Source: a virus | DNA length: 31,314 bases | Reading direction: 5' to 3' (one strand) | IMG/VR virus record: IMGVR_UViG_3300046450_000346 | Location: 1-31,314 of that record | In this document: positions 409-21,610 of the stretch, piece by piece | How the letters are laid out: each line of letters begins with the position of its first letter | How positions within the stretch are numbered: position 1 is the first letter of the stretch | The notes under the pieces: generated by a model | The model's input: the letters and a program-made list of their open reading frames with translations, nothing else | What the model was told of the DNA's origin: nothing | Databases searched by the model: none | Position numbers and translations under genes: made by a program

Positions 409-420
409 ATAATGATTACA

Positions 421-1816: not shown

Positions 1817-3308
1817 TCAGCTAGACGCTAAATATAGTCAATCACATATAAATGCTTTTTATACACAAGCAAAAAAACTGATTGCTGATCCTTTTGACTT
1901 TGTTGTCTTTGTAAACCAAACAGAAATGAGTCTGCTAAACACAACCAAAAAGAAAGACGGGTACCTACAAGGGATTACATTCCATGTACCTAAGTACGGT
2001 AAAGACTGGATTGAAATTGATATTATCCAGCATACCAAACCAGGCGAGCGTAGTCTACTTGTAACACCAAACGTTATATTAAACAATCCTGAATCGTTCT
2101 TTAGTTATAAGTCAAAGGGTATTGACAAACTATATCTTGAAGACGGAAATCTGTGTTACTTCTGCCACCGTAATGAAAAGGTTGAAGGCATATTATCTAA
2201 GTGGAATGAGATGGAAGACTCAATGACGTTTGACAACCACTCCTTTGAAGATGCGTTCTTTAGTAACATTGTACCAGACTTTTCGTTTATACAAAATACA
2301 AATCACAACTACCCAGAAAAGACTGAGGGCGACATAGTTGTATTGCCTTATTGGTATTCAGATTTCTCTAAAGAACAATTAGAATTAAATTACAACAGAG
2401 AGGCAGATCTATATCCTTGGCTACCCGAAAGAGTAGAGATTGAAGCAATAGGACCTACTGGACATTTAACTACTGATATTGTTGAAGATGCTTTTACTGT
2501 AGACTTTTGTGAGAAGGCAAGACTAAAAAGAATTAAAATGGTAGGACTTACACAAGATCCTACTGATAACCCAGAGTTGTTTGACATAATACAATACCTA
2601 ATGGGTAACTGGGGCGTTGCAGTTGACCTTGAAACTGATGGTATTAATAACGACATGGGATGGTGGCGTACATTGGGTATGTTATACTTTACAATAACAA
2701 ATAATATAGCTAACATTACATTTAATATTAATACCTCACACCCAGACGAAAAGATACTACGACATGCAGACGAGTTACTTAAGCAGGGTTGCAGAGTCTT
2801 TTGGAGTTACACACAAACATCGTTGACGCAAGAGAATGATGTTGTAAGAGCTAAAGAGTTATCTAAAAGACATCTTTTTACAGGTTTTATATATAATGAT
2901 AAAATCGAACCAGAGAAAGTGGTTATAGAACCGAAGGAAACCAGTGAAATGCCAGACTATAATCTCATTACACTTGACACTCTACAGACAGTTAAACAAG
3001 ACGACATATATAAAGAGAGAAAGATAAAATTTGCTCCACATGTTAAATGTGAAGGTAAGATTAATAATCAATTTTATTTAAGTGCTAAAGGAAATGTATT
3101 TCCGTGTAAGCATGTAGCAAACAATATTATCTCAGCAGACAGATCTCCAGAACATAGGACGGAGTTGATGTATAGTTGGGACAAGAACAATATTTGTAAT
3201 TATACATTAGAAGATATTTTTACTAATGATTTTTACAAAGGGTATTTTAATAATTTATTAAAGTTGAACCCGATAGTTATTCATAATGAACAGGAAGGCA
3301 TATGTTAA
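1797..3308 (+). CDS. Fused degenerate glycosyltransferase / cluster-less radical-SAM-SPASM-like protein
   Basis: A 503-residue protein. Residues 1-150 follow the neighbours' glycosyltransferase layout (N-terminal strand, AKYSQSHINAFY, then DFVVFVN), but the place where they carry a DxD reads LVTPNVILNNPESFF (about 88-102), so metal binding is probably lost. Residues 210-410 look like a radical-SAM barrel: RIKMVGLTQDPTDNPELFDII (245-265) resembles the 'GGEPLLNPDLFEII' strand-helix, and VAVDLETDGI (274-283) the 'ETNG' strand. The canonical CxxxCxxC that holds the iron-sulfur cluster is absent. Residues 418-437 (C418, then GNVFPC437) resemble a SPASM auxiliary-cluster domain, with further Cys at 467 and 503; a CxxC lies at 120-123. 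It could be a binding or scaffold protein, or have gained another role. The fold assignments are my reading by pattern. Confidence 0.6.
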   Translation: MVTLIANQLDAKYSQSHINAFYTQAKKLIADPFDFVVFVNQTEMSLLNTTKKKDGYLQGITFHVPKYGKDWIEIDIIQHTKPGERSLLVTPNVILNNPESFFSYKSKGIDKLYLEDGNLCYFCHRNEKVEGILSKWNEMEDSMTFDNHSFEDAFFSNIVPDFSFIQNTNHNYPEKTEGDIVVLPYWYSDFSKEQLELNYNREADLYPWLPERVEIEAIGPTGHLTTDIVEDAFTVDFCEKARLKRIKMVGLTQDPTDNPELFDIIQYLMGNWGVAVDLETDGINNDMGWWRTLGMLYFTITNNIANITFNINTSHPDEKILRHADELLKQGCRVFWSYTQTSLTQENDVVRAKELSKRHLFTGFIYNDKIEPEKVVIEPKETSEMPDYNLITLDTLQTVKQDDIYKERKIKFAPHVKCEGKINNQFYLSAKGNVFPCKHVANNIISADRSPEHRTELMYSWDKNNICNYTLEDIFTNDFYKGYFNNLLKLNPIVIHNEQEGIC

Positions 3309-3520
3309 AAGTTAAAGATGGTACGGTGATTGAAGGTAGTTTTAATGATGAGGAATTCATTCCTATTGTAGTCAACTCAGAATTCTCCACACTATTAGTT
3401 CAAATAGATTTAGAAAATTTCGAACCAAAGTGTGTTGAAATTACAATGTTGCTTGCAGGTGAAGGCAAACAATACGGTACAGATTATGTTATTGTTAGGA
3501 GAGCAGTAAGTGAGAGTTAA
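3302..3520 (+). CDS. Small conserved-looking protein of unknown function
   Basis: A 72-residue acidic protein starting MLKVKDGTVIEGSF and ending near DYVIVRRAVSES. I do not recognise the family. It appears to be a beta-rich single domain without signal peptide, membrane segment or obvious catalytic motif. A purine-rich AGGAAGG sits just upstream of the ATG, and the start overlaps the end of the 503-residue fusion protein by 7 bases, so it is probably coupled to it. Its own end overlaps the next glycosyltransferase by 11 bases. The position between the SPASM-like protein and a glycosyltransferase suggests a partner or accessory role; that is inference only. Confidence 0.55.
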   Translation: MLKVKDGTVIEGSFNDEEFIPIVVNSEFSTLLVQIDLENFEPKCVEITMLLAGEGKQYGTDYVIVRRAVSES

Positions 3521-4322
3521 TATTGTATGTGCCAAGTGGGGGACAAAATATGGTCCTCACTTTGTAAACAAATTAAAGAATATGGCAAAAAGAAACTGTG
3601 ATCCAAAACACGATTTCCATTTCTATTGTTATACTGATGACTCCGAAGGCTTTGATGATGACATTAAGGTTATAGACTTCCCAGATATTCCAAACATACA
3701 CCCGAAGTATTGGTTCCAAAAAGACGAATTTAAATATGGCATGGCACGATGTTGGGATAGACCTAAAACATTTGTATTCAATACGCACAACTTTGCTGAA
3801 GATAAACCTACAGGACGTTTTGTTTTCTTTGACTTAGATGTAATCATACAGAATGACATAGAGCCTTTACTTACATACAACATGGAACGGCCTACTAAGT
3901 TAAGATCTTGGTGGCAAGATCCTCGTCCAATGAAGACTCGTAGATTTAAATTGGCACATGGTGCATACACAAATGGCAGTTGTCAAGTATGGAGCGACGA
4001 TCAGGCAGAATGTATATGGGACGATGTATTAAAACACCAGGAACAGATATGGTTTACATATACAGACGGTACAGACAATTATCACTCTTGGAGATGGGGA
4101 GACTGGGGTAAGAAACTATGGGATCACTTCCCGGCAGACTATGCTTACTCGTATAACCGAGGCCGTAGTTGGGACGATGACGATTTAGAAGTTGACATTT
4201 ACAGAGAGACTCCAATTGTATGTGTATTTAATATTGATCTACTACCGTTTGAGGATGCTAGTAGAGGACACACAAAACAAGATGAGTTAGCAGACCCTGC
4301 GTTATTGAGGCATTGGGTATAA
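3510..4322 (+). CDS. GT-A fold glycosyltransferase, paralogue 3
   Basis: A 270-residue protein with the signature CAKWGTKYGPHFVN (residues 7-20), CYTDDSEGF (40-48) and a DxD in FVFFDLDVIIQNDI (DLD at 108-110). It also has a YTDGTDNYHSW segment and a C-terminal ALLRHWV, close to paralogue 2. The start is a GTG at 3510; an AGGAG box at 3497-3501 with eight bases of spacing supports it clearly, and it matches the paralogue N-termini. It overlaps the small upstream gene by 11 bases, and its stop TAA shares one base with the next ATG (TAATG). Fold and metal site look intact, so I expect an active nucleotide-sugar transferase with unknown acceptor. Confidence 0.78.
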   Translation: MRVNIVCAKWGTKYGPHFVNKLKNMAKRNCDPKHDFHFYCYTDDSEGFDDDIKVIDFPDIPNIHPKYWFQKDEFKYGMARCWDRPKTFVFNTHNFAEDKPTGRFVFFDLDVIIQNDIEPLLTYNMERPTKLRSWWQDPRPMKTRRFKLAHGAYTNGSCQVWSDDQAECIWDDVLKHQEQIWFTYTDGTDNYHSWRWGDWGKKLWDHFPADYAYSYNRGRSWDDDDLEVDIYRETPIVCVFNIDLLPFEDASRGHTKQDELADPALLRHWV

Positions 4323-5011
4323 TGCACATAGAGTATTTAAATATCTATACGGTTAAACATGGTACCAAATACGGCTCCGCGCATGTTAACAAGATATTAG
4401 AATCCTGTAAGCAGAATTTGTCTTACAAGTTTACGTTTCATTGTTTAACTGAAAGTCCTAAAGGATTAGATGAAGACATAGTAGTCATTCCTCTTCCTAA
4501 AGATAACAAGTTAGAAAAATGGTGGAATAAGATGTACTTGTTTGATAGCAACGTTGTAAGACAGAAGGGTGAGAATCTTTTCTTTGACTTAGATGTTATC
4601 ATACAAAAAGACATAGATGATATAGCTAATTTCGATCCTGAGGATTGTTTAGCTTTTGGCCAAACACATTGGCATGATTTAGAAACTATGGCAAAGAACA
4701 CAGAGCATGTTCCTCATAGATTCACAGATTTAAATAGTAGTGTATTAAGATGGAACGATAACCTGGATACAGAAAATATATCGTTATATTTTAAAGCACA
4801 TTTGGAAAAGGTCCTATGGTACTATAGGGGGATAGATAACTTCTTCATGCACAAGGGTGTAGCAAGAATTAAATATTTTCCAATAGGGTGGTTTTATAGT
4901 TACAATCACGGGTACATATATCCGCATGATGTAGAAAAACAAGTGTACAGACAGATACCATATGTTTGTTTATTTGATTCAATGGGAAGAAAAGAAGATG
5001 TTAAATTTTAA
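4322..5011 (+). CDS. GT-A fold glycosyltransferase, paralogue 4
   Basis: A 229-residue protein: VKHGTKYGSAHVN (residues 11-23), CLTESPKGLDEDI (41-53) and a DxD in LFFDLDVIIQKDIDDI (DLD at 89-91), nearly the same motif as paralogue 3. The later RGIDNFFMHKG and the final segment YVCLFDSMGR follow paralogue 1 and 2 layout. The frame could start at a TTG at 4313, but the ATG at 4322, 11 bases after a GAGG box and overlapping the upstream stop by one base, is better. It lacks the C-terminal RHW segment of paralogues 2 and 3. The end overlaps the methyltransferase-like gene by 14 bases. Active glycosyltransferase expected; acceptor unknown. Confidence 0.77.
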   Translation: MHIEYLNIYTVKHGTKYGSAHVNKILESCKQNLSYKFTFHCLTESPKGLDEDIVVIPLPKDNKLEKWWNKMYLFDSNVVRQKGENLFFDLDVIIQKDIDDIANFDPEDCLAFGQTHWHDLETMAKNTEHVPHRFTDLNSSVLRWNDNLDTENISLYFKAHLEKVLWYYRGIDNFFMHKGVARIKYFPIGWFYSYNHGYIYPHDVEKQVYRQIPYVCLFDSMGRKEDVKF

Positions 5012-8051: not shown

Positions 8052-8711
8052 TTAGGAGAGATGATCTGCGGATTCGCCCGAGATATCCTCAATCATGTTG
8101 CGCCACATGTCGATTTGAGGGATAACATAGGCTAATGTGATGCGTGGTTCGTGTGTTCCAGCACAATGATAGTACACTTTCTCGGGTTCTCTGCCCTTGC
8201 CGTAGTATCCTACCTTACAAGACCAACCACCAGGATCATCCATAGTGACTATCTCATGTGTTTTGGCGTCCCTGTACTTAAAGAAGCCGCCTCCCTTCTC
8301 TGTATATGATAGAAGGATATTATAACCAGAGGCGTTCCAGTTATTGTGCCACCCCATATAACCATCAACTGGATAGTATACATGAACTGCCTCATTTCTA
8401 GCTCCTAGAAACTCCAATAGTGTAGATGACATTTGTTCGTGTTTAACTCTAAAGTTGTCAGGGCATAGGTGTTTTAGTCCCATTAGATCAAAGCTTCTAG
8501 AGATTTCGGGATAGCCTACATGTGCGCCATCCTTTTGTAATATCTTAGCTAAATACTCAGGTCCACAACAATACTCCATATCAACTTTAGTGTCGTTCTT
8601 TTCGTTTTCGTCTGATAACTTATTCAATGGTTCCAAGTCTTGACTAAAAAACCAATCGCTGTAGGGCGTAAGAATATCTAAGAGTTCATCACTTATATCG
8701 GTAAATATCAT
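8052..8711 (-). CDS. 2-oxoglutarate/Fe(II) oxygenase-like protein
   Basis: A 219-residue protein. The core is VYYPVDGYMGWHNNWNASGY (111-130), a double-stranded-beta-helix strand with the first metal histidine (H122), then NILLSYTEKGGGFFKYRD, and a distal YYHCAGTHEPRITLAYVI (180-197) with H182 or H187 as the second histidine and R190 as a likely 2-oxoglutarate arginine. The usual HxD is HxN here (N124). I recall similar GWHTN proteins in marine phages, so this may be a family trait. The start overlaps the stop of the 377-residue gene (ATGA, four bases). Placed behind a glycosyltransferase, it may hydroxylate a sugar, a protein side chain or a small metabolite; the substrate is unknown. Confidence 0.65.
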   Translation of the reverse strand: MIFTDISDELLDILTPYSDWFFSQDLEPLNKLSDENEKNDTKVDMEYCCGPEYLAKILQKDGAHVGYPEISRSFDLMGLKHLCPDNFRVKHEQMSSTLLEFLGARNEAVHVYYPVDGYMGWHNNWNASGYNILLSYTEKGGGFFKYRDAKTHEIVTMDDPGGWSCKVGYYGKGREPEKVYYHCAGTHEPRITLAYVIPQIDMWRNMIEDISGESADHLS

Positions 8712-9841
8712 AGTGGTGCACTCCTTGAATTGTGATCTTTACTAAACATTAATTTTTCTGCCGTATATTGTTCTTGCCATGTGTAATCATATCGTGTAGA
8801 TTTGTTCTCTATTATATTAAGATCGCTATCAACAAAGCCTACTGCTGTTATGTTATCACACTCTTTAATTATTATATCTAATGATTGCCAAGAGTCGTCT
8901 GGAAACAATTCAAAAGCTGGCATACCCATGACTGCATCTCCTACACCTGTTTTAGGATCATTGTAATCATAACCTTTATCTTCTAGCCACTTAGCAAAAC
9001 CTGATTCTTCATCCATCCTATATAAATCTAATTCATTGCCAGGACCTGTAAGACATATTTGTACTTCACCTGACATAATACAATGTTGTGATATATTACC
9101 ATCATCTATGTATTCGTCTCCATCGTCAAACACCTCTCTAAGTGTTTTTCCTGTTTGTGCATAGTATGGAACGAGTGCGCCCCATAGTATTCCTGACTTT
9201 CCCCAGTCATTACTATGTTTGTCTTCATAATAATATTTTATTCTCTCCTTGCGTTTAACTCCATCCCAACAGAAACTGTTGTAGCTTATTCCTGTCCAAC
9301 CATATGATTCAAAATCTCCATGCCCAGGTGATATGGCGTGTACATAACTTTCTATTTCATGGCAGGCATTATTAAGGCAATGTGTAGCCCAACGAGTATG
9401 GTTATCCATAATCTCATACCACTTACTTACACTCCATGTTTGTCCTATAAGTACCTCGAAGTGATGATGTAGTTGATTAAAATCATCACGAAATAAATCG
9501 GGAGTCCAACAACGCTCAGGTGTAAAGTGTTGTGTTATAGTAGGAAAGTCTGTTAGTCGGGTATTAATAACTTCAATAGCATCATTAAGTTCATCACATA
9601 TCTGTTGTACGTTACGACTCCATGGCTGATCTTTTGTTTTAGGAAAGCCTTTATTCATAAAACGTTTATCTAGAAGTGCGTATGATGTTTGATTATCTAT
9701 ACCTATATAGTTGGATATAAGTGTTTTCTTCCAAAACTGAGATATATGCTTATCATTAATATTCCAATACATGGTGAAAGCACTCTCACCATTAGAATAC
9801 TCTACAAAGAATCGTTCATTATCAAGTGTCTGTCCAATCAT
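8708..9841 (-). CDS. 377-residue protein of unknown function, His-rich centre
   Basis: I do not recognise a named family. The centre contains RDDFNQLHHHFEVL (118-131) and HCLNNACHEIESYVH (154-168), two probable helices with clustered His and Glu that could bind metal, in the manner of helical-bundle iron proteins; this is inference. The second half is acidic and Trp/Tyr-rich (ISYNSFCWDGVKRKERIKYY; AFELFPDDSWQSLDIIIKE). No signal peptide or membrane helix. It overlaps its upstream glycosyltransferase and downstream oxygenase-like gene by four bases each (ATGA), so the three proteins are made together and may act on the same substrate. Confidence 0.6.
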   Translation of the reverse strand: MIGQTLDNERFFVEYSNGESAFTMYWNINDKHISQFWKKTLISNYIGIDNQTSYALLDKRFMNKGFPKTKDQPWSRNVQQICDELNDAIEVINTRLTDFPTITQHFTPERCWTPDLFRDDFNQLHHHFEVLIGQTWSVSKWYEIMDNHTRWATHCLNNACHEIESYVHAISPGHGDFESYGWTGISYNSFCWDGVKRKERIKYYYEDKHSNDWGKSGILWGALVPYYAQTGKTLREVFDDGDEYIDDGNISQHCIMSGEVQICLTGPGNELDLYRMDEESGFAKWLEDKGYDYNDPKTGVGDAVMGMPAFELFPDDSWQSLDIIIKECDNITAVGFVDSDLNIIENKSTRYDYTWQEQYTAEKLMFSKDHNSRSAPL

Positions 9842-10584
9842 AGACGACCCTTTCTATTCCCAGCAGTTACTTCATGTTGAGGTATAGTGTAGTGATAGAA
9901 AACTATATCTTCGTCTTCTAACTCTTCCGGGTTGTGTCCGTTGATAAAGTTCCATTTAACATGTAAGTCTTCTCCCCATCTCACACCATGATCGCTATAA
10001 GTTAAAAGCTTCCACATGGTGAAGGTGTCCCACTTACGAGCTGCCTTAGGATAGTCTCCAATTGGAATTGTCTCGTCCTGCTGTTTAACATACTCTCCCC
10101 ACCAAGAATCCATTAGTCTAATTGTCTTTGGATTATTTCTGTATATAAACATGCCACAGTGCATTGTCATCTCTTCCGTATTAGAGAGTTTCGTTAGCGC
10201 TGCGTTGTATGGTCTAATCTTTGTGAACAACAAATCTAAATCATCTGGGAGTTGATCAAACACATCTGCAACTGCCTCATCCTGACATACCATATCGGCA
10301 TCCAAGTAACAAGTCTTACCCTTGTATGGTGTTTGTCCTAACGCCCATAGTTTAGCTCTTATATGTTTAGGAACTTCCCAATGTACAATATAGTCTGCGT
10401 GGTTCCAATCGCTTGGTTGTATCCAAGATTCATCATCTGTATAGACTGTAATGTGTGCTTCAGGCCAAAACAATTTAACTGACTCTGCACATTCAATAGC
10501 TGCTTTATAAAATCTAATAGACTTAGATGCTACTATAATAAATCCATTATCAGGGAAGTCCTCAGGCTTTCTTAGCATCTTCAC
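9838..10584 (-). CDS. GT-A fold glycosyltransferase (separate lineage from the plus-strand set)
   Basis: About 248 residues. Opening strand NGFIIVASKSIRFYKAAIEC, then AHITVYTDD, then a DxD in KTCYLDADMVCQDEAV (DAD near residue 96), MHCGMFIYRNNPKTIRLMD and late IVFYHYTIPQHEV. The order fits a nucleotide-sugar GT-A enzyme acting in the infected cell's cytoplasm. It lacks the KYGTKY...VN signature of the plus-strand copies, so it was probably gained independently. Start: GTG at 10584 is six bases after an AGGAG box (10591-10595); ATG at 10578 is an alternative. It overlaps the 180-residue gene by 23 bases and the 377-residue gene by four. Confidence 0.78.
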   Translation of the reverse strand: MKMLRKPEDFPDNGFIIVASKSIRFYKAAIECAESVKLFWPEAHITVYTDDESWIQPSDWNHADYIVHWEVPKHIRAKLWALGQTPYKGKTCYLDADMVCQDEAVADVFDQLPDDLDLLFTKIRPYNAALTKLSNTEEMTMHCGMFIYRNNPKTIRLMDSWWGEYVKQQDETIPIGDYPKAARKWDTFTMWKLLTYSDHGVRWGEDLHVKWNFINGHNPEELEDEDIVFYHYTIPQHEVTAGNRKGRL

Positions 10585-11104
10585 CAATAACTCCTATCAG
10601 CTTAAGTTCTTCGGCTAGTAGTATGCTAGTTAACGCTTGCACTTCTAAAGGCGTTTTAGCTTTACGAACTAGTTTCTTGAGGGTATTGTTTTTAGAGCTT
10701 TTAAGCATTGGTATTTCAAATGCTTCAAGCTTTACATTGAATAGTTGTTCTTGTTTGGCTCTTACAATTTCAGCTTCGCGTCTTTGTAAGCGTTTCTTGA
10801 TGTGTTCATCTCTACGCCTGACACCTTCTGCTGTATTAGCATCAATGACGTCTTCGCCATATTCTTCTAGTACTGCTGAGTAGTCTGGGTTTGTTCCATC
10901 TTTATCTTGTATTGATGCGGTAGCTTTTCTACCGTCTGGATACTCAATAGTAACGATGAGATGTTTGTGTTCCTTACTAGACCAGTAAGGATCTATAAAT
11001 TTGTATTTACGTTCTTTTGGTGCTTCGGGTTCAGACTCAATAAACTTCTTGTCGGTCTTAATAACCTTAGCTTCTAAAGGAATGCTCTTCTTCGGCTTTG
11101 CCAT
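10562..11104 (-). CDS. 180-residue charged phage protein downstream of the tail fibres
   Basis: A Lys/Glu-rich protein: basic N-terminus (MAKPKKSIPLEAKVIKTDKK), a central beta part (HKHLIVTIEYPDGRKATASI), then a long charged helix (RRRDEHIKKRLQRREAEIVR, about 95-115) and FNVKLEAFEIPMLKSSKNN, LEVQALTSILLAEEL. The last part matches a conserved hypothetical family I recall from T4-like marine phages, often near tail genes; its role is not known to me. The ATG follows a GGAG box, and a T4-type late promoter (11126-11133) lies upstream, so expression should be late. It opens the overlapping operon with the glycosyltransferase and oxygenase-like genes. Confidence 0.6.
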   Translation of the reverse strand: MAKPKKSIPLEAKVIKTDKKFIESEPEAPKERKYKFIDPYWSSKEHKHLIVTIEYPDGRKATASIQDKDGTNPDYSAVLEEYGEDVIDANTAEGVRRRDEHIKKRLQRREAEIVRAKQEQLFNVKLEAFEIPMLKSSKNNTLKKLVRKAKTPLEVQALTSILLAEELKLIGVIGEDAKKA

Positions 11105-11140: not shown

Positions 11141-12463
11141 TTAAGCAGTTCTCAACCACAGCCTTACCGTTCCTACCGTTGAACTAGAGCTTTGTATTGT
11201 ATCGCCTGCGTATGTGCCTGCGTATGCTCCAGTATAGTTACCTGCGTATGTACCTGAATAGTAACCTGTATATGTTCCGGCGTATGTACCTGCATAAGCA
11301 GATGTTCCTACATATGCTCCAGTATATGAACCTGAGTAAGCTCCTGCGTATGTTCCGGAATAACTCTTAGCACCTGTGTAATACCCTGTGTAATAACCTG
11401 TGTAATAACCTGTGTAAGAAGTACCTGCATAACCTGAGTAATCATGAGCATAAGAGCCTGCGTAAGCTCCCGCGTAAGCTCCTGCGTATGCTGAGGTTCC
11501 TACATATGCTCCAGTATAGTTACCAGTATAGCTGCCTGCGTATGCTCCTGAATAACTCTTAGCACCTGTATATGCTCCTGCATAGCTACCTGAGTATGTG
11601 CCTGCGTATGCTCCAGTATAGTTACCGGTATATGTACCTGAATAACTACCTGTGTAATTTTGTGATGTTACGTTTTTAGATGTATCTGTGAAACCACCTG
11701 CGTCTCCCATCTGTACCCATGTGCCTGAGCCAGGAGCAGATGATTGTAAAGTGTAAGTCCCTTTACCTTGTCCATCCATTATTCTGTTTCTAAAATTTGG
11801 AACTAGTTGTTCCATTTCGGCAACGGACATTTCTTTAATTCCGTTTGAACCTTCTACTTTAACTGGTTTGAAATTTGAAACTGCTGCTGTTGTAGCTGCT
11901 GTTTTCTGCCAAATATACATTGTTGCTGTTGTGCCGTCTACCTGAGTATCGTCTAATTGATATCTAGATGTCCACGTACCACCTGATGGTGTAGATGAAT
12001 TTAATGAATACTGTCCAACTGTATAGTCACTACCTGAAACCATTGAAGCTACAGTTTTGTCTATAATATCTGTATCTAGTTGTCCGTCTGTAAACTCGTT
12101 TAATCCCGTTGTACCTGATGTTAAGTAACCTATAGGCCTGTTGGTAACACTCTCTGATGCTGTTGCACTAACTTGTTTAGCTGTGTAAGTAGTTACAGTA
12201 GAAGATGCACCGTCTGTTGGATGTGTTCCAACTGCGTCATCTCTTTTAGTATCTGTAATTGAACCAATGGTTGTACCGGAGCCTGAGCCGTCTGTTGTTA
12301 CATTAAGTTCCCCTGTACCTGTTCCATTACTATTATCAGCAAAGTCCTTTGTCAGAATTGCTGAGAAATATTGTTCTATTTCATTATCTGACATTTCTTG
12401 CAGACCCTGGAAGTTTGAACTACTAACTGGATATGAAGATGCTTTGACTTTTAATGGGATCAT
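11141..12463 (-). CDS. Tail fibre with 38 Tyr-x-Gly-x repeats
   Basis: A 440-residue fibre. Residues 1-265 are a Thr/Ser/Gly-rich stalk and binding part (MIPLKVKASSYPVSSSNFQG, FKPVKVEGSNGIKEMSVAEM, YTLQSSAPGSGTWVQMGD; the YTLQSS and YSLNSS segments look like two copies of one unit). Residues 270-421 are tetrapeptide repeats such as YTGS, YAGT, YSGA and YTGN. The last 19 residues (QSSSSTVGTVRLWLRTA end) form a short cap. Virion role: receptor contact or fibre shaft, by analogy with glycine-rich phage fibres. No ribosome-binding site stands out at 12463. Dense Tyr, Ser and Thr make it a plausible acceptor for the nearby glycosyltransferases (inference). Confidence 0.75.
   Translation of the reverse strand: MIPLKVKASSYPVSSSNFQGLQEMSDNEIEQYFSAILTKDFADNSNGTGTGELNVTTDGSGSGTTIGSITDTKRDDAVGTHPTDGASSTVTTYTAKQVSATASESVTNRPIGYLTSGTTGLNEFTDGQLDTDIIDKTVASMVSGSDYTVGQYSLNSSTPSGGTWTSRYQLDDTQVDGTTATMYIWQKTAATTAAVSNFKPVKVEGSNGIKEMSVAEMEQLVPNFRNRIMDGQGKGTYTLQSSAPGSGTWVQMGDAGGFTDTSKNVTSQNYTGSYSGTYTGNYTGAYAGTYSGSYAGAYTGAKSYSGAYAGSYTGNYTGAYVGTSAYAGAYAGAYAGSYAHDYSGYAGTSYTGYYTGYYTGYYTGAKSYSGTYAGAYSGSYTGAYVGTSAYAGTYAGTYTGYYSGTYAGNYTGAYAGTYAGDTIQSSSSTVGTVRLWLRTA
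11201..11656 (-). repeat. 38 x 12-bp coding repeat with a 192-bp higher-order period
   Basis: The segment is exactly 456 bases, or 38 units of four codons. Most units are Tyr-(Thr/Ala/Ser)-Gly-x. Some units are altered (AKSYSG and YVGTSA variants), and these occur twice at a constant offset of 192 bases: the AATAACTCTT word starts at 11359 and 11551, and GTTCCTACAT at 11304 and 11496. This shows duplication of a 16-unit block. Confidence 0.85.
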
Positions 12464-13261: not shown

Positions 13262-16200
13262 TTATGCCTGAAGAGCTATAGCCCTTAAGTCTTTAAACTT
13301 AGGTACTTGTGCTGTATTGGATGATAATGGTACAATTTTAACTGCAAAGGTTTTAAAGCCTGAGTGTGTAACAGTAGCAGTTGCTCCTGTTGCCGTCGCT
13401 CCACTACCACCACCGCCTGTAATTGTTATAGTAGGTGTACTTGTATAACCTCTTCCAGGGTTTGTAATAGTAATTGAACTAACTGTTGTACCGCCGTTTA
13501 AATTTGCCTTTGCCGTCGCTCCAAAACCATTGCCGCCAGTTATAGAAACAGTTGGTACCGAGGAGTAACCAGAGCCTGCTGCTGTAACTGTTATTGCTGA
13601 AACAGTTTCTAAGTCGTATTCAAATTCTCCACTATTTAAACCATATGTACCGGAGCTTTTGATTGGTAAAGTGTACAAATATTCTGCAAAACCATCTGTT
13701 CTTTCGTATGGTGCTGTAGTTGATGATAGTTCTAACCAACTTAAATCTTCCTGGAAGTCTCCCTCATCTGCTGAGTTCATTAACTTACCATATACTTTAA
13801 TGCTTCCTTCACTTGGAATTGAGGCATCAATATATACATTAAGATCTTCTGCGTCCATTCCGTCTTCTAGTATTACACGTCTTGAAATGTACTTGGATTT
13901 AGCACTACCACCGGTCCTGCCGTCTTCACCTGTTGATACATTGTTAACATCATTTGCTACTAGTAGCATGTTTAACATATCCAAAGGAATCATTGGTGAG
14001 ATGTTTCTTTGAGGTGTACTCATTATTAACTTCAACATTGCTGAAGCTTTAGATGCGTATGTTGTTACTTCGTTTGAATAACTGTAAATAGTTTTTTCAT
14101 TTAATAGATTAAGTGTACTGTTAAATGTTAACGGTTCATACACTGGAGCTTGTTCTGCGTTACTAACAGCACCTGTTTTTGTTAGGGCTATGGATGCAAT
14201 ACATTGTGTTTCTGCGCCTGGCATTAATAGTGATGCGTTTAGCGCAATGTCATTAACTACCTTGTCTGTGAATTTTTCGATTGAAGTATATCCTCTAGCT
14301 GAGCCTATCTTCATACCTGTTGTAAACTGTCCTGATCTCCAACTAACCTCGGCATACTTATGTAGGCTATTCCAGCCTTGTACAACACCTTGGTTAAGAG
14401 ATACAGTTCCTGTTGCTTGTGTAGCTGAACCTGCTGAAATTGTTATAGTAGGTGCACTTAAATAACCTGATCCTGGATTAGTTACTGTTAATGCTGTTAT
14501 AACATCTCCTGTAACAGTTGCTGTCATTGCTAATCCTGTTCCGTTTGTGCCTGTGTTTGTTACTGTAACAGTAGGTGTAAGTCCGCTATAACCTGTGCCT
14601 GCGTTTGTAATTGCTGGAGTAAAGCCAACAACCATATCGCCTGGTGTTAGTTGAACCATTGATGTAGGAACATATGTTCCAACTTCAGGTGTAATCCAAT
14701 CAACTTTGGCATTTCTCACATACCCTGTTACTTTAGTATCTGTTTTAAAGTCTGCAACCTTAAGATTAAACATCATGTCTTTTGATTGCTCAGGACTCCA
14801 TGTTCTATCATTAGCCGAGCTAAACATCATACCAGCGTGTGGTTGTTTAGTTATTCTTTCTGATGTTCCGTATTGGTTTTCACCCAACTCTGAGATCCAC
14901 AATGTGTAATCTAGATTATCGTTCTCTGGTTTTGGAACAAAACAGTACTCTGTATCGTTTTGTAAATACACCATGTCTCGGAATTTAAATGTTGTTGGTG
15001 TAAATGTTGTAACACCATCTGTTTCAGATGAAATATTAATCGATGTTCTTTCTAAATATCTAGATCCGTTTGGAACTACTTTAGGTCCAGGGACTCCATT
15101 AATTACTTCTCTTAATTCTACTGTTACTCCATCAGTTCCTGATGTAGGTCTTCCCTTGAAGAACAAATCAATTTCAGTTACAAACAATCCTCCGGCCATT
15201 CCGCCTACTGAAAATGTTTGTGCTAACGGATCGCCTCCCATATTAAATCCCCAGAAGTCGAAGCCCCAATCAAAGTCCTCTCCAAAATCGAATTGGAAGT
15301 CGTCAATAACAGGTTCTGGATCTGGAATTGGATCTGGAATTGGAATGAATATTGGCCAATCTATAATTGGCCAGCCGAATATTGCAGGCGTAAATGTAAC
15401 TGGTGGCTCGGGAGGAGCTGTGAATGTTATAGGTGGCGCCGTGAATGTTACTGGCGTTATAATCTGTGTAAAGGTTACAACTTCAGTAAATGAAGCTACA
15501 TTAGTAAACGTTACTACCGGTGCTGGTACAGGTGTTACTGGTGCCGGTACTTCAACAAATACCGTCTCTGTTACTGTGTTGTCTATTATAGTAACAATAG
15601 GTGGGTTGTTTATAATAACCGGTGCCGGTGCTGGTGGGAGGGGTGACCCTGCTCCAATAGAAACACCTAAAGACACATCTGTTGTTACTCTATCATCTGA
15701 AAATTGAGATGTATTAACGTTAGCAGTTTTCATTGCAACAATAGTGTCTTGCTTTGTCTGTGTTAGTCCTGATGACTCATATATTGCTGTTGCTGATGTT
15801 ACCGAAATCTTATCGTTATTTGTGGGACTGTCTGTTAGTTTAAATACTCTAGCACCTGTTCTAAATACCCCTTGAGGTATTAGGAAGTTAACTGCTACAA
15901 CTCCAGCTGCGTCTGTCATAAGCACTTGGTTGCCAGTTGATAGTGTACAATTTGTCGTTACACTTTCACCATCGAAGAATGGATAAACTCTAGTATTAGG
16001 TTTCAATCTTCTTGCTTGAACTACAACCAATCTTGAACGCATAAATGGTGCAATGGCTGTATCAACTACCTTCTCTCCTAGGTTTTGTGTCTCAGTTGAT
16101 GCCGAAATGTCTAATGCAATACCCTGTCTAACTTGGGTTTGTTGTGTTGTAGTGGTGGTAAATAGTGAAGAACTTCCGTCTCCCCCGCCTGTTGAAAATG

Positions 16201-19200
16201 TATCTAAGGCCTGGGTTGTTGATGTAACATTTGCTACACCGGTGTCTTCCCAATCGCCCCATTGTGTGCCCCAAGCGTCTGCCATGTTTTCCCAAGCATC
16301 GTAGTTACCATCAAAGTTTACATTGACTGCTGGCCTAATAGCTGTGTCTACATAGTTATCTACGTTAGGATTGAGTGTTATATCTCCGAAATAGTTAAAT
16401 TGTAACTCTTTAGCTAAGTTCTCAAATTGACTTGCTTTGTTTTGTTCTATATAAATTCTTTGAGAATACGGGAGTGATAATGAACTACCAGTTCTAACTA
16501 GAGTTGATACTGTGTTACTAGTGGGATTAGTGATACCTGAATGTACAAGAGTCTCAATGTTTTCTGTAACAAAGAACGGCCTCGCATGTTTGGCTTTACC
16601 ATCAACTGCTATGTGGTAATCAGGATCTAATACTGCCCCTACGTTGTGGCCTGTGAAAGGATCCACTAATATGCCATTTTTAAATCTATCTGTTCCACTA
16701 GCATTAATAATTGTTTGATCTTTAGCATATGTCTCTAATAAGTTTAAAGATGCATAATACTCTAAGTTTTTAATCCTAGATTCTAATCCACCAATGTCTT
16801 GCATTGTGAATCTTTTATTAGCTGCTTGTTTTACTACTACACCATAATCAGGCCTGTTTACTGTCTTGGCTAATTGAGGTGAAACACATGGATATGGTGG
16901 CAATTTAATATTTGCCAAAGTCATTGATTGAGCAGGTTCAGGTGGTAACTTAGGCGTATTTGAATTTGCCCCTTCTACTATTCTGAAATTGCCGTCAAAG
17001 TCTAATACTACTCTAATATGTTTTCCAATGTAGTATTGTAAGTCTGTTGTAAATGTGCCTGTAGGTACTGGATTTGTTAATCCTGAACCGGGTCTGTTAA
17101 TTGTTTCAGATGCATCAGGGTTAACAGTAGCACCAGCTAACGTTGCTGAGGTTGCTGCTGTATTAATTGTTTTAGGTCTAAAGTCGATTGAATCTCTAAG
17201 ATCTATATCGCCATATTTATTTGATCTATAAAGTGGAATGTCCTCTGTTCTGATTGTGCCGGATGCTGGTGTTGCAGTATCATCTACAGGGTAACTATCT
17301 ACACTTGAGAACGTTGCTGTTGAAACTGTGTCCGTAAAGAACGACATCTTAACAACGATATATCTGTTTGTTGATAAATTAATAGTACTTGTTGAATGTT
17401 TAAATAGTTTAGCTTGGCCAAAGTAGTTGTCTTGTTGACCTGTTATAAATCTAAACTGATCTGTTACATCTACTTGTCCTGTTACATAGTCTGAATTGCT
17501 ACCAATTGTAATAGATGATATTTTATATCCATCACAAACACCTAGGTTATATTCACCTGATGTTGAATTTACATGTGTACCAGTATCAAGTTTAATGTAT
17601 TTGTCTACTTGTAAAGCTTTAGCAATTGGTTGTGCGTTTGCTATTTGAGTATTAACATATACTCTTACATCTGCCGAACCCGCTCCTACTGTAATTGCTC
17701 CGCCTAGATCTATTGTTATAGATGTTGAACTGTTAACAGTAACCGAAGCATTTGTATTTGTTGATGTTAAGTCTATATAATCGCCGGCCGCGATTGTTGC
17801 TACATTTTGTACGAATCCGTCTTTACTAACAACAATAAAGTTGCTAACAATTTGAGAATCTGTTAATGTCCCAGAGTATGGGAATGTCTCACTTCCGGAA
17901 GTTGTTATTGTAACGTTACCACCAGATGTATCTAGTGTTACATCATACTCTTTCATGTATGTGTATGTGTAGTCTAATGAGCCAGCATCGGCTTCTAATG
18001 TTTTAATATTTTTATATGGAAGTTTGTAAACTAATTTGTTTACTTTTGTTTCGCTTAGTACAGCTTTACTACTTACTAATACAGCATTTGCTATACCTGG
18101 GTTTGCTGTTTCTGATCTAAGGCCTCTGACTGCTGTAAAATCACCTGAAGACATTTTAACATCATATAAGTAAATTCTATATACTGCTGATGTTGCTCCG
18201 GCTGTTCCGCTAGTCCAACATATGTGTCTTGCTTTTGCTGTACCAACTTTTGTTCCTGCTGCTGAAGCAGCGCCGTCTTGTACTGCATTGTATAAGTCTA
18301 CAACTGTTCCACCATCTACATCAAATACACCGTGTGTATGATTTACGCTTATATAATTACCATAAGCAGTAGACAATGTTCTTGATTCTTCAGTCTCAAA
18401 TGCTAATGATTTGTATATTGGAATTCTTTTTGTGCTTGATAGTTCTCTTTTAAAACCACCAACATATGAAATACCTGGATCTATTCCAATAACAAGTGCT
18501 TTGTTTGTTCCGTTATTAGCAGCTGTATATAGGCCGCCATTTGTACCGTTATTAAGATGCTCTCTTATTGAAACAGTATTACCCTTAACTAAGTAGTTGC
18601 CTGATTCGTCATAAGTCCTTCCAGCTAGGATTTTACCTACGCCTGATAGTGGATTGTCTTTAAGATTAATCCTTTGAATTTCTCCGCCAGTCCAATTAAC
18701 ATATGTGTAAAAGTTTTCTGGTTTTGTAGCTGTATCATTATATGATGCTAGAGTAACTGTATACTCTAAACGATCTGCTCCAGGAGCATTAAAGTTAAAC
18801 GATCCCTGTGCCGGATCTAATAAGCTATTATCTGTTGATGATTGTTTTACTGCCTCGCCTATTAGGAAGCCAACATTTTTGGATTTCATTCCGTAGTATT
18901 TGTCGACTAAACAACTAATTTTATTTGTTTTAATAAATGCGCCACGTGCGTATATAACACCGGGTTCAAGTATAACTCTACTTGTTTGTCCTGAATAGCC
19001 TGTAGCTGAATTTACAACTAGCGTATCGCCGTTGTATAAAGCGTAACCATATCCTGTAGTTGTTCCGTCTGATGGAATGAGTGTTAGTGTTTCACTTGCC
19101 TGAAAAGTAGTCTTAGTAGATGTTGTACTGCTTGTATTATATACTAAATACAAAGTTTTCATGTTAGGTGCGCCAGCAACAGTTCCTGTTTCAACTGCTG

Positions 19201-19531
19201 TTATCGTAGCTCGCAAGCCTGTCGTTCCACCCTGGACATCCATACCAACATAACCTTTTAAAGCTGTGTCAGTAATTGCAGCTGAGGCTGCGTCGGTATC
19301 TTGTATTTTAATATATGATACTCTTTGTACTGTCTCAGCACAACCTGTTACAACTGCTCCCTCTTGTAACAAGAAACCAAATCCCTTAGAGAATTGATCC
19401 TGTAGAATAGTTTGTAGTTGTGTTAGTTCCCTTGCCTGTACAGCGACGCCGGGTTTAAAAAGAATCCTATGAAACTTTTTATCTTGACTAAAATCGTCGT
19501 AGTATGGTGATGCGTTTAAATTGAGTGCCAT
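13262..19531 (-). CDS. Giant DUF4815-family tail protein (baseplate periphery/fibre)
   Basis: A 2089-residue protein. The N-terminus has the DUF4815 signature: SPYYDDFSQDKKFHRILFKP, then VAVQARELTQLQTILQDQF. The middle is beta-rich. Residues about 1297-1430 are a Pro-rich linker (VFVEVPAPVTPVPAPVVTF; VTFTAPPITFTAPPEPPVTF; IPIPDPIPDPEPVIDDF) ending in an Asp/Trp/Phe-rich piece (EDFDWGFDFWGFNMGGD). Then DPLAQTF opens the jelly-roll-like domain common in large marine phage tail proteins. Two GSGY repeat blocks follow (about 1630-1710 and 1977-2053). It probably occupies the position of T4 gp10 or the fibre attachment proteins; direct homology to gp10 is not claimed. No ribosome-binding site is clear; an AGTATAAATA box lies 120 bases upstream. 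Confidence 0.85.
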   Translation of the reverse strand: MALNLNASPYYDDFSQDKKFHRILFKPGVAVQARELTQLQTILQDQFSKGFGFLLQEGAVVTGCAETVQRVSYIKIQDTDAASAAITDTALKGYVGMDVQGGTTGLRATITAVETGTVAGAPNMKTLYLVYNTSSTTSTKTTFQASETLTLIPSDGTTTGYGYALYNGDTLVVNSATGYSGQTSRVILEPGVIYARGAFIKTNKISCLVDKYYGMKSKNVGFLIGEAVKQSSTDNSLLDPAQGSFNFNAPGADRLEYTVTLASYNDTATKPENFYTYVNWTGGEIQRINLKDNPLSGVGKILAGRTYDESGNYLVKGNTVSIREHLNNGTNGGLYTAANNGTNKALVIGIDPGISYVGGFKRELSSTKRIPIYKSLAFETEESRTLSTAYGNYISVNHTHGVFDVDGGTVVDLYNAVQDGAASAAGTKVGTAKARHICWTSGTAGATSAVYRIYLYDVKMSSGDFTAVRGLRSETANPGIANAVLVSSKAVLSETKVNKLVYKLPYKNIKTLEADAGSLDYTYTYMKEYDVTLDTSGGNVTITTSGSETFPYSGTLTDSQIVSNFIVVSKDGFVQNVATIAAGDYIDLTSTNTNASVTVNSSTSITIDLGGAITVGAGSADVRVYVNTQIANAQPIAKALQVDKYIKLDTGTHVNSTSGEYNLGVCDGYKISSITIGSNSDYVTGQVDVTDQFRFITGQQDNYFGQAKLFKHSTSTINLSTNRYIVVKMSFFTDTVSTATFSSVDSYPVDDTATPASGTIRTEDIPLYRSNKYGDIDLRDSIDFRPKTINTAATSATLAGATVNPDASETINRPGSGLTNPVPTGTFTTDLQYYIGKHIRVVLDFDGNFRIVEGANSNTPKLPPEPAQSMTLANIKLPPYPCVSPQLAKTVNRPDYGVVVKQAANKRFTMQDIGGLESRIKNLEYYASLNLLETYAKDQTIINASGTDRFKNGILVDPFTGHNVGAVLDPDYHIAVDGKAKHARPFFVTENIETLVHSGITNPTSNTVSTLVRTGSSLSLPYSQRIYIEQNKASQFENLAKELQFNYFGDITLNPNVDNYVDTAIRPAVNVNFDGNYDAWENMADAWGTQWGDWEDTGVANVTSTTQALDTFSTGGGDGSSSLFTTTTTQQTQVRQGIALDISASTETQNLGEKVVDTAIAPFMRSRLVVVQARRLKPNTRVYPFFDGESVTTNCTLSTGNQVLMTDAAGVVAVNFLIPQGVFRTGARVFKLTDSPTNNDKISVTSATAIYESSGLTQTKQDTIVAMKTANVNTSQFSDDRVTTDVSLGVSIGAGSPLPPAPAPVIINNPPIVTIIDNTVTETVFVEVPAPVTPVPAPVVTFTNVASFTEVVTFTQIITPVTFTAPPITFTAPPEPPVTFTPAIFGWPIIDWPIFIPIPDPIPDPEPVIDDFQFDFGEDFDWGFDFWGFNMGGDPLAQTFSVGGMAGGLFVTEIDLFFKGRPTSGTDGVTVELREVINGVPGPKVVPNGSRYLERTSINISSETDGVTTFTPTTFKFRDMVYLQNDTEYCFVPKPENDNLDYTLWISELGENQYGTSERITKQPHAGMMFSSANDRTWSPEQSKDMMFNLKVADFKTDTKVTGYVRNAKVDWITPEVGTYVPTSMVQLTPGDMVVGFTPAITNAGTGYSGLTPTVTVTNTGTNGTGLAMTATVTGDVITALTVTNPGSGYLSAPTITISAGSATQATGTVSLNQGVVQGWNSLHKYAEVSWRSGQFTTGMKIGSARGYTSIEKFTDKVVNDIALNASLLMPGAETQCIASIALTKTGAVSNAEQAPVYEPLTFNSTLNLLNEKTIYSYSNEVTTYASKASAMLKLIMSTPQRNISPMIPLDMLNMLLVANDVNNVSTGEDGRTGGSAKSKYISRRVILEDGMDAEDLNVYIDASIPSEGSIKVYGKLMNSADEGDFQEDLSWLELSSTTAPYERTDGFAEYLYTLPIKSSGTYGLNSGEFEYDLETVSAITVTAAGSGYSSVPTVSITGGNGFGATAKANLNGGTTVSSITITNPGRGYTSTPTITITGGGGSGATATGATATVTHSGFKTFAVKIVPLSSNTAQVPKFKDLRAIALQA

Positions 19532-19534
19532 GTG

Positions 19535-21121
19535 TTAAAACCTAATCAGTGCCTTTATTTGTTCCACTTGTTCCGCAGATCTTAAAATTGGTGATCTGTT
19601 GTCTAAGTATATTACTTCGCCGGTTGCATTATCTACTTCCGGTGCTGTTAATGTATTTATACTCAGATCAGCCAAGTTCTGTGTAGTATTTGTTAATACT
19701 GAATTGACTGTTATTACGGGGTTTGTGGAGGTTAAATATATGTTTGTTCCTACTATTTGAATGACTTGGAAATTACCGCCATCATCACTAGTCAACAAAT
19801 CATCTATTGCATAACTTGAAGCACTAGGTACTCCAATAATATGGCATGTTGTTGCTGTGTTTGTTATATATGTAACTCCTGCTGGAGTTTTCATATTCTT
19901 AATTAATGCTATTTGTCTGAAGTCATTACCTAAAACTAAATCGTTGTTTGTATTGTCATCAAAAGATACTGTAATACCTATACTACTAGCAAATAATTCT
20001 CTTACTGGATTAGAACCATGTCCACCTTGAGGTGATACTATAGCTCTTGCAGCTCCAAGTTGTCCAGGTGAATCTGGTGCTGTGTTTGTAATAGTTATCG
20101 TAGCGTATGAGTATCCCGAACCAGGATTAGTAACTCTAATACCTGTAAGTGCTCCTGTTGCTGCGTTAACATATGATGAACACTCTGCGCCGGTGCCATC
20201 TCCTGACACGCTAATTTGAACATCGTTAGCTGCGTAATCTTTACCAGGTGCTGTAATTACAACTCTATCTAATGTGCCTTTAACTGAAGCACCCTCGACT
20301 GCACTCTGTAGTGCTGGAAGTGCGTCTGCATCTCCTAAGTTAACTGTGCCTGTTCCGCCGGCGCCACCGCCACCTGTAAATGCTACAAAGGCAAAACTAT
20401 AACCACTACCTGAAGAGTTTACTGTAACTCCTGTAATGGCGCCGCCTGTTAGCGTTGCTGTGCCTGAGAAAGTACCATCACCATCTCCTGATACAACTAC
20501 TGTTGGCGAGCTTGTATAACCCGAGCCGCCGGCTGTAATTGAGATGCTATCTATTTCCCCGTTAACATCATGGGTTGGACTGCCTGTTAATTTTCTAACA
20601 GGTATGTAGTCTGCGTCTAAAAACTTTGTTTGATCTGAAGCAGATATCTGAAACATAAATTTCCAGTTATAATTATCTGCGAGTTCAAATACCGATGTAC
20701 CAGTACTAGATGGTTTTACCGTTGAAGGACCATTACTGTTGTTACTAATACATTTATAAACTTTATATTCATCTGTCATAATGAAAAATTTTGCATCTGC
20801 TAAACTAGAGGCCCCGGTATATGATTGAGATGAAGAAGTATAATTATCATCATACTCATCATATACCGTGCCTGAAGTCCAGTCATATCGTTTTGCCAAT
20901 AGGCAAACGTCTGCTGAGTCAATTCTTTGGGTGAACATCATACCACGACGATATGTTGATATATATTTATCTGAATCAATAGGAGTTTCAGGTGACGTTT
21001 CATCGTCCCAAGAATTTGTCCTACCTACTGCAAAATGGAAATAGTCATTGTTGTTTCTTATATCTCTATAAAAAGAACGTGCTAGTTCTACTCTACCTAA
21101 TCGTCGTAATACAAGTGCCAT
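19535..21121 (-). CDS. 8: Baseplate wedge protein gp8, with inserted GSGY repeats
   Basis: A 528-residue protein; T4 gp8 has 334. Matching landmarks are the early RRLGRVELARSFYRDI and VGRTNSWDDE (like 'FYNSIG...FGRSEPW'), RYDWTSGTVYDEYDD, NYNWKFMFQI, NDFRQIALIKN (T4: FRQISIITN) and the end GEVIYLDNRSPI...EQVEQIKALIRF (T4: GEMIYMENRPPI...EEINILFTF). The extra length is mostly residues 187-345, three to four copies of the GSGY module. gp8 dimers are structural parts of the baseplate wedge with gp6, gp7 and gp10. It follows the small structural gene by 11 bases, with an AGGG box before the ATG. Position after gp7, as in T4, supports the call. Confidence 0.9.
   Translation of the reverse strand: MALVLRRLGRVELARSFYRDIRNNNDYFHFAVGRTNSWDDETSPETPIDSDKYISTYRRGMMFTQRIDSADVCLLAKRYDWTSGTVYDEYDDNYTSSSQSYTGASSLADAKFFIMTDEYKVYKCISNNSNGPSTVKPSSTGTSVFELADNYNWKFMFQISASDQTKFLDADYIPVRKLTGSPTHDVNGEIDSISITAGGSGYTSSPTVVVSGDGDGTFSGTATLTGGAITGVTVNSSGSGYSFAFVAFTGGGGAGGTGTVNLGDADALPALQSAVEGASVKGTLDRVVITAPGKDYAANDVQISVSGDGTGAECSSYVNAATGALTGIRVTNPGSGYSYATITITNTAPDSPGQLGAARAIVSPQGGHGSNPVRELFASSIGITVSFDDNTNNDLVLGNDFRQIALIKNMKTPAGVTYITNTATTCHIIGVPSASSYAIDDLLTSDDGGNFQVIQIVGTNIYLTSTNPVITVNSVLTNTTQNLADLSINTLTAPEVDNATGEVIYLDNRSPILRSAEQVEQIKALIRF
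19654..19661 (-). promoter_or_regulatory. Late promoter candidate inside gp8, before the giant tail gene
   Basis: Minus-strand AGTATAAATA, read as Ser-Ile-Asn-Thr in gp8, about 120 bases before the giant tail protein start at 19531. It shares ten bases with the candidates at 11126, 21785 and 26471. Confidence 0.55.
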
Positions 21122-21132
21122 TTATATCCCTA

Positions 21133-21576
21133 TTAAGATATTGTTACTGTCCAAGTAATTGTCATTGAATCCGTTACTGCTTTGTTAACAACGGAAAAAA
21201 CGGTTCTACATAACAACACACCACTAGAAGAGGCATTCAAAATACCTGCTTCTGTAACTGCGCCAGTGCCTGTGCCTGCTGCAAAACTAGCAACATAAGC
21301 AACTGCGTTAGCTGTAACTGTTGTTGATGTTAATGCAACTCTTGCTGCTTCTGTTCCTAATGTAGTGTCGCCAGCTGCTGCTGCTACTGCACCAGTACCA
21401 ATGCCCATATGGCTCATTGCTGTTGCTGTTGCGTCTTTCATTCTTCCCGCTATATATGCTAGTCCAGTATCAACCACTAAGTTATTAACTTCTCTGTGAT
21501 CGATTACTTTACCTGCTTCGTTTTTAATTTCAATAGTAAGCTTACCTGTAGCTTTACTTACGTCTTCTTTAAACAT
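21133..21576 (-). CDS. Small virion structural protein between gp7 and gp8
   Basis: A 147-residue protein. N-terminal part: GKLTIEIKNEAGKVIDHREV then NNLVVDTGLAYIAGRMKD; the rest is Ala/Thr/Gly-rich (MGIGTGAVAAAAGDTTLGTE, VALTSTTVTANAVAYVASF, VTEAGILNASSSGVLLCRTV) ending TWTVTIS. This 'GxLTI...REVxNLVVDTG' arrangement is a familiar small structural protein of marine phages, but its exact place in the virion is not known to me. An AGGAG box seven bases before the ATG and a CATAAATA element upstream support late expression. T4 has no gene at this place between 7 and 8, so it is a lineage-specific insertion. Confidence 0.65.
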   Translation of the reverse strand: MFKEDVSKATGKLTIEIKNEAGKVIDHREVNNLVVDTGLAYIAGRMKDATATAMSHMGIGTGAVAAAAGDTTLGTEAARVALTSTTVTANAVAYVASFAAGTGTGAVTEAGILNASSSGVLLCRTVFSVVNKAVTDSMTITWTVTIS

Positions 21577-21602
21577 GTTAATCTCCTAAATCTATTATGT
21601 TT

Positions 21603-21610
21603 TATTTATG
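21603..21610 (-). promoter_or_regulatory. Variant late promoter (CATAAATA) overlapping the gp7 stop
   Basis: Minus-strand CATAAATA, whose TAA is also the stop codon of the gp7-like gene. The expected start, about 21597, gives a leader with AGGAG seven bases before the ATG at 21576. This arrangement is tidy, but the first base differs from the consensus. Confidence 0.5.

Follow-up and report, generated by a model that had tools for sequence, protein, structure and literature searches.

In a window of 31,314 bases from a marine, T4-like phage (the whole stretch of DNA analysed here), the Tyr/Gly-rich repeat of a putative tail-fibre gene shows a pattern that is far beyond chance, and what chiefly orders it is mirror symmetry rather than tandem repetition. 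The repeat is probably an antiparallel needle that runs out and back with its tip in mid-chain, making up the shaft and tip of the tail-fibre end. One rule holds in about 60 distinct metagenomic relatives: residue i stands opposite residue j with i+j fixed, so that Tyr meets Gly and two-residue insertions of the xK type meet insertions of the TS type (hereafter keys).

Genomic context and modular architecture

The window carries T4-like tail genes on its minus strand, with gp6-like, gp8-like and wedge-protein matches; the gp8-like product shares about 31% identity with cyanophage gp8. These baseplate genes lie upstream of an ORF of 440 codons. From this gene position and from the architecture of the product we infer that it is a tail-fibre protein, in support of the earlier note, which had called it a fibre gene. 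Several proteins of the baseplate region (13262-24149, minus strand) share a Gly-rich motif, GxGYxxxPTxxITGGGGxGATA, apparently a small mobile domain. Against Pfam and PHROG the fibre protein gave sub-threshold Gly-zipper matches alone, judged to be compositional, and the family profile found no match among PDB sequences. The gene and its predicted modules are as follows.

11141-12463, minus strand: putative fibre protein gene, 440 aa, three tandem modules, the third with the repeat (ORF; 78 related loci, N- and C-terminal parts conserved)
12113-12424, minus strand: module copy 1, aa 14-117, predicted helix and strands with a short hairpin at about aa 64-74 / 87-97 (hhalign against copy 2, E 4e-7; AlphaFold2 pLDDT ~92)
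11849-12115, minus strand: module copy 2, aa 117-205, predicted short hairpin GTWTSRYQL...TATMYIWQKTA (hhalign against copy 3, E 1.7e-13; AlphaFold2 strands 163-173 / 179-189)
11660-11848, minus strand: module copy 3, outgoing half, aa 206-268, ending GTWVQMGD... (AlphaFold2, hhalign)
11144-11206, minus strand: module copy 3, returning strand, aa 420-440, GDTIQ...TVRLWLRTA, resembling YIWQKTA of copy 2 (always 20 aa past the last Gly; AlphaFold2 pLDDT 81-95; hhalign)

For the hhalign comparison with copy 2, the outgoing half of copy 3 was joined by hand to the C-terminal 20 aa, and these last 20 aa then matched strand two of the copy 2 hairpin (YIWQKTA / RLWLRTA). By these alignments the repeat is an insert within the predicted beta-hairpin of module 3, the last of the tandem series. 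AlphaFold2 models of the monomer are confident for the modules and the C-terminal strand, and copy 3 appears in them as two strands leading into and out of the repeat; a relative with a repeat of only 50 aa (L054) was modelled with the same hairpin base. Foldseek against viral models returned no match with E < 0.19. VIA-align against the PDB gave top Z scores of 5.9 and 6.8 (perforin-2 P2 domain, MABP domain), in a range that the tool calls common, and these candidates were set aside.

Period and DNA repeats of the Tyr-x-Gly-x region

The Tyr/Gly-rich repeat described earlier at 11201-11656 was confirmed, and lies within the 440-aa minus-strand ORF. Its features, in the order of the protein chain, are listed below.

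11204-11656, minus strand: mirror-symmetric Tyr-x-Gly-x region, the proposed needle, aa 270-420 (151 aa), residue i opposite 690-i (sequence, mirror pairing)
11555-11563, minus strand: key 1, AKS, aa 301-303, K302 opposite S388 (sequence, pairing)
11489-11497, minus strand: key 2, TSA, aa 323-325, S324 opposite K366 (sequence, pairing)
11408-11452, minus strand: conserved central element, aa 338-352, YAHDYSGYAGTSYTG, at the exact repeat midpoint, putative receptor-binding tip (position of the motif Gly)
11363-11371, minus strand: key 3, AKS, aa 365-367, partner of key 2 (sequence, pairing)
11297-11305, minus strand: key 4, TSA, aa 387-389, partner of key 1 (sequence, pairing)

Tyr residues are mostly 4 aa apart, with a spacing of 6 aa at four sites (GAKSY, GTSAY, GAKSY, GTSAY) and an irregular run (4, 3, 5, then 3+1) around YAHDYSGYAGTSYTGYY. 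Gly makes up 23% of the repeat, one per four residues, and there are no polyglycine runs. An exact repeat in which all units keep the 12-base period, as had been proposed, is thus broken by the four 2-aa insertions and by the irregular centre, and the proposed 38 units are an arithmetic figure (456/12), the four insertions together amounting to two units. TRF recognised short stretches alone within the segment, 65-94% matching. A perfect 12-bp repeat does occur elsewhere in the window (TGGATCTGGAAT, 2.3 copies, 15317-15344), in the gene of a 2089-aa DUF4815 protein, where it codes for the Pro-rich IPDPIPDP.

The segment overlaps itself best at an offset of 192 bases (63% identity) and then at 12 (57%). 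Two words, AATAACTCTT (11359, 11551) and GTTCCTACAT (11304, 11496), have two occurrences each in the entire window, separated by exactly 192 bases, as the earlier note had observed. They code for the two key types, and recur at this distance because the keys follow one another in the order K, T, K, T. The duplicated 192-bp block that had been proposed from them was not confirmed at the DNA level: the two copies are 59% identical in amino acids, and their identical residues share codons in slight excess (31 against 23.5 expected, p 0.02). The longest exact DNA repeat, of 33 bp, lies at an offset of 384 bp rather than 192. As a sign of recent 192-bp duplication the shared codons are weak, and simple DNA duplication was set aside as the origin of the 192-bp recurrence.

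Mirror rule and key pairing

The mirror rule arose from a side-by-side reading of the relatives, in which the xK insertions of one half match the TS insertions of the other in reversed order. The natural axis places the first Tyr of the repeat opposite the last Gly, and the mid-residue Lys of an xK key opposite the mid-residue Ser of a TS key. In the window both key pairs have the same sum (K302+S388 = S324+K366 = 690). Tyr stands opposite Gly in 74% of cases at the exact mirror. Displacing the axis by four residues lowers this to 64% (-4) or 62% (+4), and displacing it by one or two residues in either direction leaves 2-13%. Literature text searches, of partial coverage, found no description of such a type of repeat.

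Of the 138 keys in the discovery proteins, 130 were paired, where 20.7 were expected. The rule was then fixed and counted out of sample in 34 new family members, after removal of discovery proteins that merely recurred with another start. The non-R members of this new set had 138 of 149 keys paired (27.0 expected from the density of sites), and its typed pairs were K opposite T/S in 69 out of 69 cases, with K in the first arm in 35 and in the second arm in 34. The sequences are mutually related, so that these pairing counts are not independent; in 28 of 30 distinct layouts, every key beyond the central 28 aa had its partner. Key rungs were Lys-Ser in 128 of 138 instances, and keys were spaced 22 or 10 aa apart. 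Two relatives were paired throughout (14/14 keys in L016, 8/8 in L004).

In the R-rich subgroup (GTRTY/GSRTY; L034-L059, L071, L074), exact mirror pairing of the marks was looked for and not found (14/224), which counts against the needle reading. In this subgroup the outgoing arm seems to gain one residue per unit over the returning arm, as bulges would give. More generally, the region cautions that a tandem-repeat reading can conceal a mirror.

Central motif and length variation among relatives

A first scan of viral contigs recovered 78 loci related to the fibre gene, and a second, profile-based scan recovered 80 more, overlapping in part with the first. The N-terminal part is common to all relatives, and in all of them the C-terminus lies exactly 20 aa past the last Gly. 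Bacterial and archaeal genomes were searched and yielded no relative. Among isolate and reference phages, the sole relative was found in Phage C48C1 (Kyanoviridae), and this far relative has no simple symmetry, which counts against the mirror-needle reading. It is a protein of 3347 aa (L080 / L162; OQ984149, record 141011-151054) with the same N- and C-terminal parts, in which the Tyr/Phe-x-Gly/Arg repeat is very long and is accompanied by several globular inserts; a stretch of 80 aa (KTRHRSYLYYS...) is present twice, perhaps through assembly duplication. Two other loci (L024, 2375-5950, and L025) hold two tandem fibre-gene paralogues, of 663 aa and then 528 or 511 aa, whose repeat types differ.

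Evidence independent of key pairing comes from the centre of the repeat. In 42 of 49 members, spanning 16 different lengths (87-363 aa), the Gly of a conserved motif (for example DYSGYAGTSY or YYAGYAHATY) precedes the midpoint by exactly one residue, and in the R-rich subgroup the motif lies within 2.5 aa of the centre. This motif is probably the site of contact with the host receptor.

The repeat measures 50-384 aa across the relatives, so that the variation in fibre length that had been predicted is real between them, yet it does not proceed by single 12-bp steps, because changes are matched in the two arms and lengths fall on multiples of 4 aa (49 of 58 main-group members). Two relatives with N-terminal parts 97% identical (L026 and L033) differ by 4 aa in each arm, and another two, 96% identical (L013 and L015), by 22 aa in each arm. 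Two further loci (L002 and L003) encode a fibre protein identical to that of the window and of the same length; being assembled contigs, these cannot show variation within a population.

The earlier note had proposed that such repeats can gain and lose units by recombination, altering the length of the fibre; the corresponding rival to the needle is a freely expanding 12-bp tandem repeat with no long-range order. The range of lengths fits such a process, as does a known precedent, the 12-bp repeat of mycobacteriophage Tweety gp54, present in 48, 26 and 15 copies in relatives (PMC2884959). Exact DNA repeats of up to 33 bp could recombine, and the small excess of shared codons between the 192-bp copies points the same way. 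Against free gain and loss of 12-bp or 192-bp units stand the mirror-paired keys, a tip that stays central as the length varies, and the matched +4/+4 and +22/+22 changes between close relatives. We consider this explanation unlikely and, as a full account, strongly disfavoured. The slippery repeat would instead be a length-adjustable needle with a conserved central tip.

Conserved neighbouring genes

Three genes downstream of the fibre gene keep their order (180-aa, 249-aa, 219-aa) in nearly all loci that reach far enough, divergent ones included.

10562-11104, minus strand: conserved 180-aa gene directly downstream, in the position of a fibre chaperone (present where the locus reaches far enough; alignment)
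9838-10587, minus strand: conserved 249-aa protein with a D-A-D motif, putatively glycosyltransferase-like (conserved beside the fibre gene; alignment)
8052-8711, minus strand: conserved 219-aa protein, putatively 2-oxoglutarate/Fe(II) oxygenase-like from its H...H...R pattern (conserved beside the fibre gene; alignment)

The 180-aa protein showed no similarity to T4 gp38 (hhalign E 0.44). The 249-aa protein had no Pfam or PHROG match, the 219-aa protein no Pfam family above the cut-off, and PDB profile searches gave no relative of either. These two proteins may modify the fibre. In two relatives (L012/L014, 5326 to 6757), about 1.4 kb of extra DNA, missing from most relatives, separates the fibre gene from the 180-aa gene. 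At 412-5011 of the window, opposite the tail genes, the plus strand encodes four glycosyltransferase-like proteins (GT8-like D-x-D), together with a protein of 503 aa that weakly matches radical SAM/SPASM; homologues of the proteins of this stretch occur at the same place in most relatives.

Proposed architecture of the needle

In the architecture that we propose, the hairpin turn of the third module would be drawn out to about 150 residues. The chain would leave module 3, run outward for some 75 residues, turn at the conserved tip motif and come straight back, its last 20 residues completing the module. The two arms would pair in antiparallel beta structure, with one face presenting Tyr against Gly of the other arm and the other face filled by Thr, Ser, Ala and Asn. 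A ladder of Tyr, as the earlier note had imagined, is plausible in that Tyr faces Gly across the mirror. A Tyr-Gly ladder of period 4 could slip by one unit, and the keys, 2-residue xK insertions facing TS insertions of the opposite arm, would prevent this by supplying a Lys-Ser rung to hold the register. As in T4 gp37, the needle is probably a trimer, with the central motif meeting the host, and the facing arms could come from one chain or from neighbours in the trimer; either arrangement fits.

AlphaFold2 gave the repeat a pLDDT of ~33, and the beta-needle was without confident prediction. The low-confidence strands that it drew there are symmetric about residue 343, near the sequence axis at 345, which is not evidence alone, and their register sum of 686 is 4 off the sequence mirror of 690.

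A beta-solenoid, or a fibrous shaft running in one direction with a ladder of Tyr, would account for the regular 4-residue period with one aromatic residue and one Gly per unit. Such a fibre would not call for a mirror, for a tip at the centre or for a C-terminus that comes back to the module, features that are all seen, and we regard it as very unlikely; the beta-solenoid or polyglycine fibre that had been suggested accommodates an out-and-back mirror with a tip in the middle less well than an antiparallel needle does. A disordered, sugar-decorated brush, its Tyr/Ser/Thr-rich tract modified by the adjacent glycosyltransferase-like and oxygenase-like proteins, would suit the low pLDDT and the conservation of those two genes beside the fibre gene, but disorder would hold neither i+j constant over 14 keys nor the tip at the exact midpoint, which makes it most improbable. 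Modification is itself compatible with a folded needle.

A more elaborate form of the needle model is tentative, and we hold it to be somewhat unlikely. Here the Lys-Ser keys would constitute a pairing code (mirror-placed K opposite S/T, in either arm) that sets the register of a degenerate Tyr-Gly beta-ladder; the needle would be lengthened by a keyed 22-aa segment or by unkeyed units in both arms at once, and would then undergo modification by the two putative enzymes, glycosyltransferase-like and oxygenase-like, that are conserved beside it.

The proposed antiparallel needle is a fold-back architecture read from sequence alone, in a protein of low complexity that AlphaFold fails to place, and its rule is simple to test in any relative. 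Lys-Ser pairing also offers a way to ask how proteins of degenerate repeats find their register, and could serve as a design rule for long antiparallel fibres.

Comparison with known systems

Tweety gp54 resembles the window repeat in its 12-bp/4-aa units, whose number varies between relatives (PMC2884959), but the units are Ala-Ala-x-x, no mirror has been described and the two are not homologous as far as known. Unit-by-unit unconstrained change, as in freely variable tandem repeats of the Tweety gp54 / BMP-1 VR2 type, was not observed in the window family. The adhesin gp38 of Salmonella phage S16, a polyglycine sandwich, is likewise a Gly-rich distal part of a fibre; in the window, Gly instead recurs at every fourth residue within Tyr-x-Gly-x, and the polyglycine runs of PGII helices are absent. 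Collar, needle and head domains occur in protein C24 of a Bizionia argentinensis phage (PDB 6OV6) and in a Vibrio phage receptor-binding protein (PMC12028318). The needles related to C24, likened here by description only, hold metal ions, whereas that of the window is expected to be without metal.

Large inserts within a common 'flower' or collar motif are known from T4 gp10, gp11 and gp12 (PMC3004832). The hairpin module weakly resembles the C-terminal part of gp11 (KPGYGTW...VFYHFERT), both in structure (VIA-align Z 2.4 with 1el6, 2.2 with 5iv5 and 2.0 with 9f4b) and in profile (hhalign E 0.03; 0.017-0.063 over the comparisons with gp11), a likeness that lacks significance of its own and is to be taken as a lead, not as proof. 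It differs from the T4 motif in being present in three tandem copies and in that the insert would be a Tyr/Gly needle, not a finger domain.

The closest parallel is with the tip of T4 gp37, a six-stranded antiparallel needle with a broad head domain that holds a putative receptor-binding region (PMC9659904); its collar has a fold common to gp12 and to parts of gp10 and gp11 (PMC6957217). At the level of sequence, hhalign of module copies 1-3 against gp37 801-1026 was not significant (E 0.37-0.64), nor was anything significant found between T4 gp37, gp38, gp9, gp10 or gp12 and the modules or the 180-aa neighbour. Seven HxH motifs follow residue 800 in gp37, while the window repeat has one His and no HxH; the Tyr-x-Gly-x ladder and the Lys-Ser keys would replace the histidine-iron layers, giving marine T4-like phages a fibre end seemingly without need of metal. 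The exact mirror symmetry, and arms of about 25 to 180 residues, also set the window family apart. The gp37 chain runs out and back, with a mid-chain tip and the C-terminus returned to the base module, as the window chain would (here deduced from sequence); both belong to T4-like phages, and the place of gp38 is taken in the window family by the conserved 180-aa gene. Contacts of aromatic residues with Gly between outgoing and returning strands would also be common to both, gp37 having His-Gly contacts as well: between subunits of its needle, Gly921 packs on Phe970 and Gly964 on His929 (PMC6957217). These pairs sum to 1891 and 1893, nearly constant, as in the mirror of the window. The proposed mirror-folded needle, free of metal motifs and of any sequence link to gp37-like fibre tips, is best read as a variant of them.
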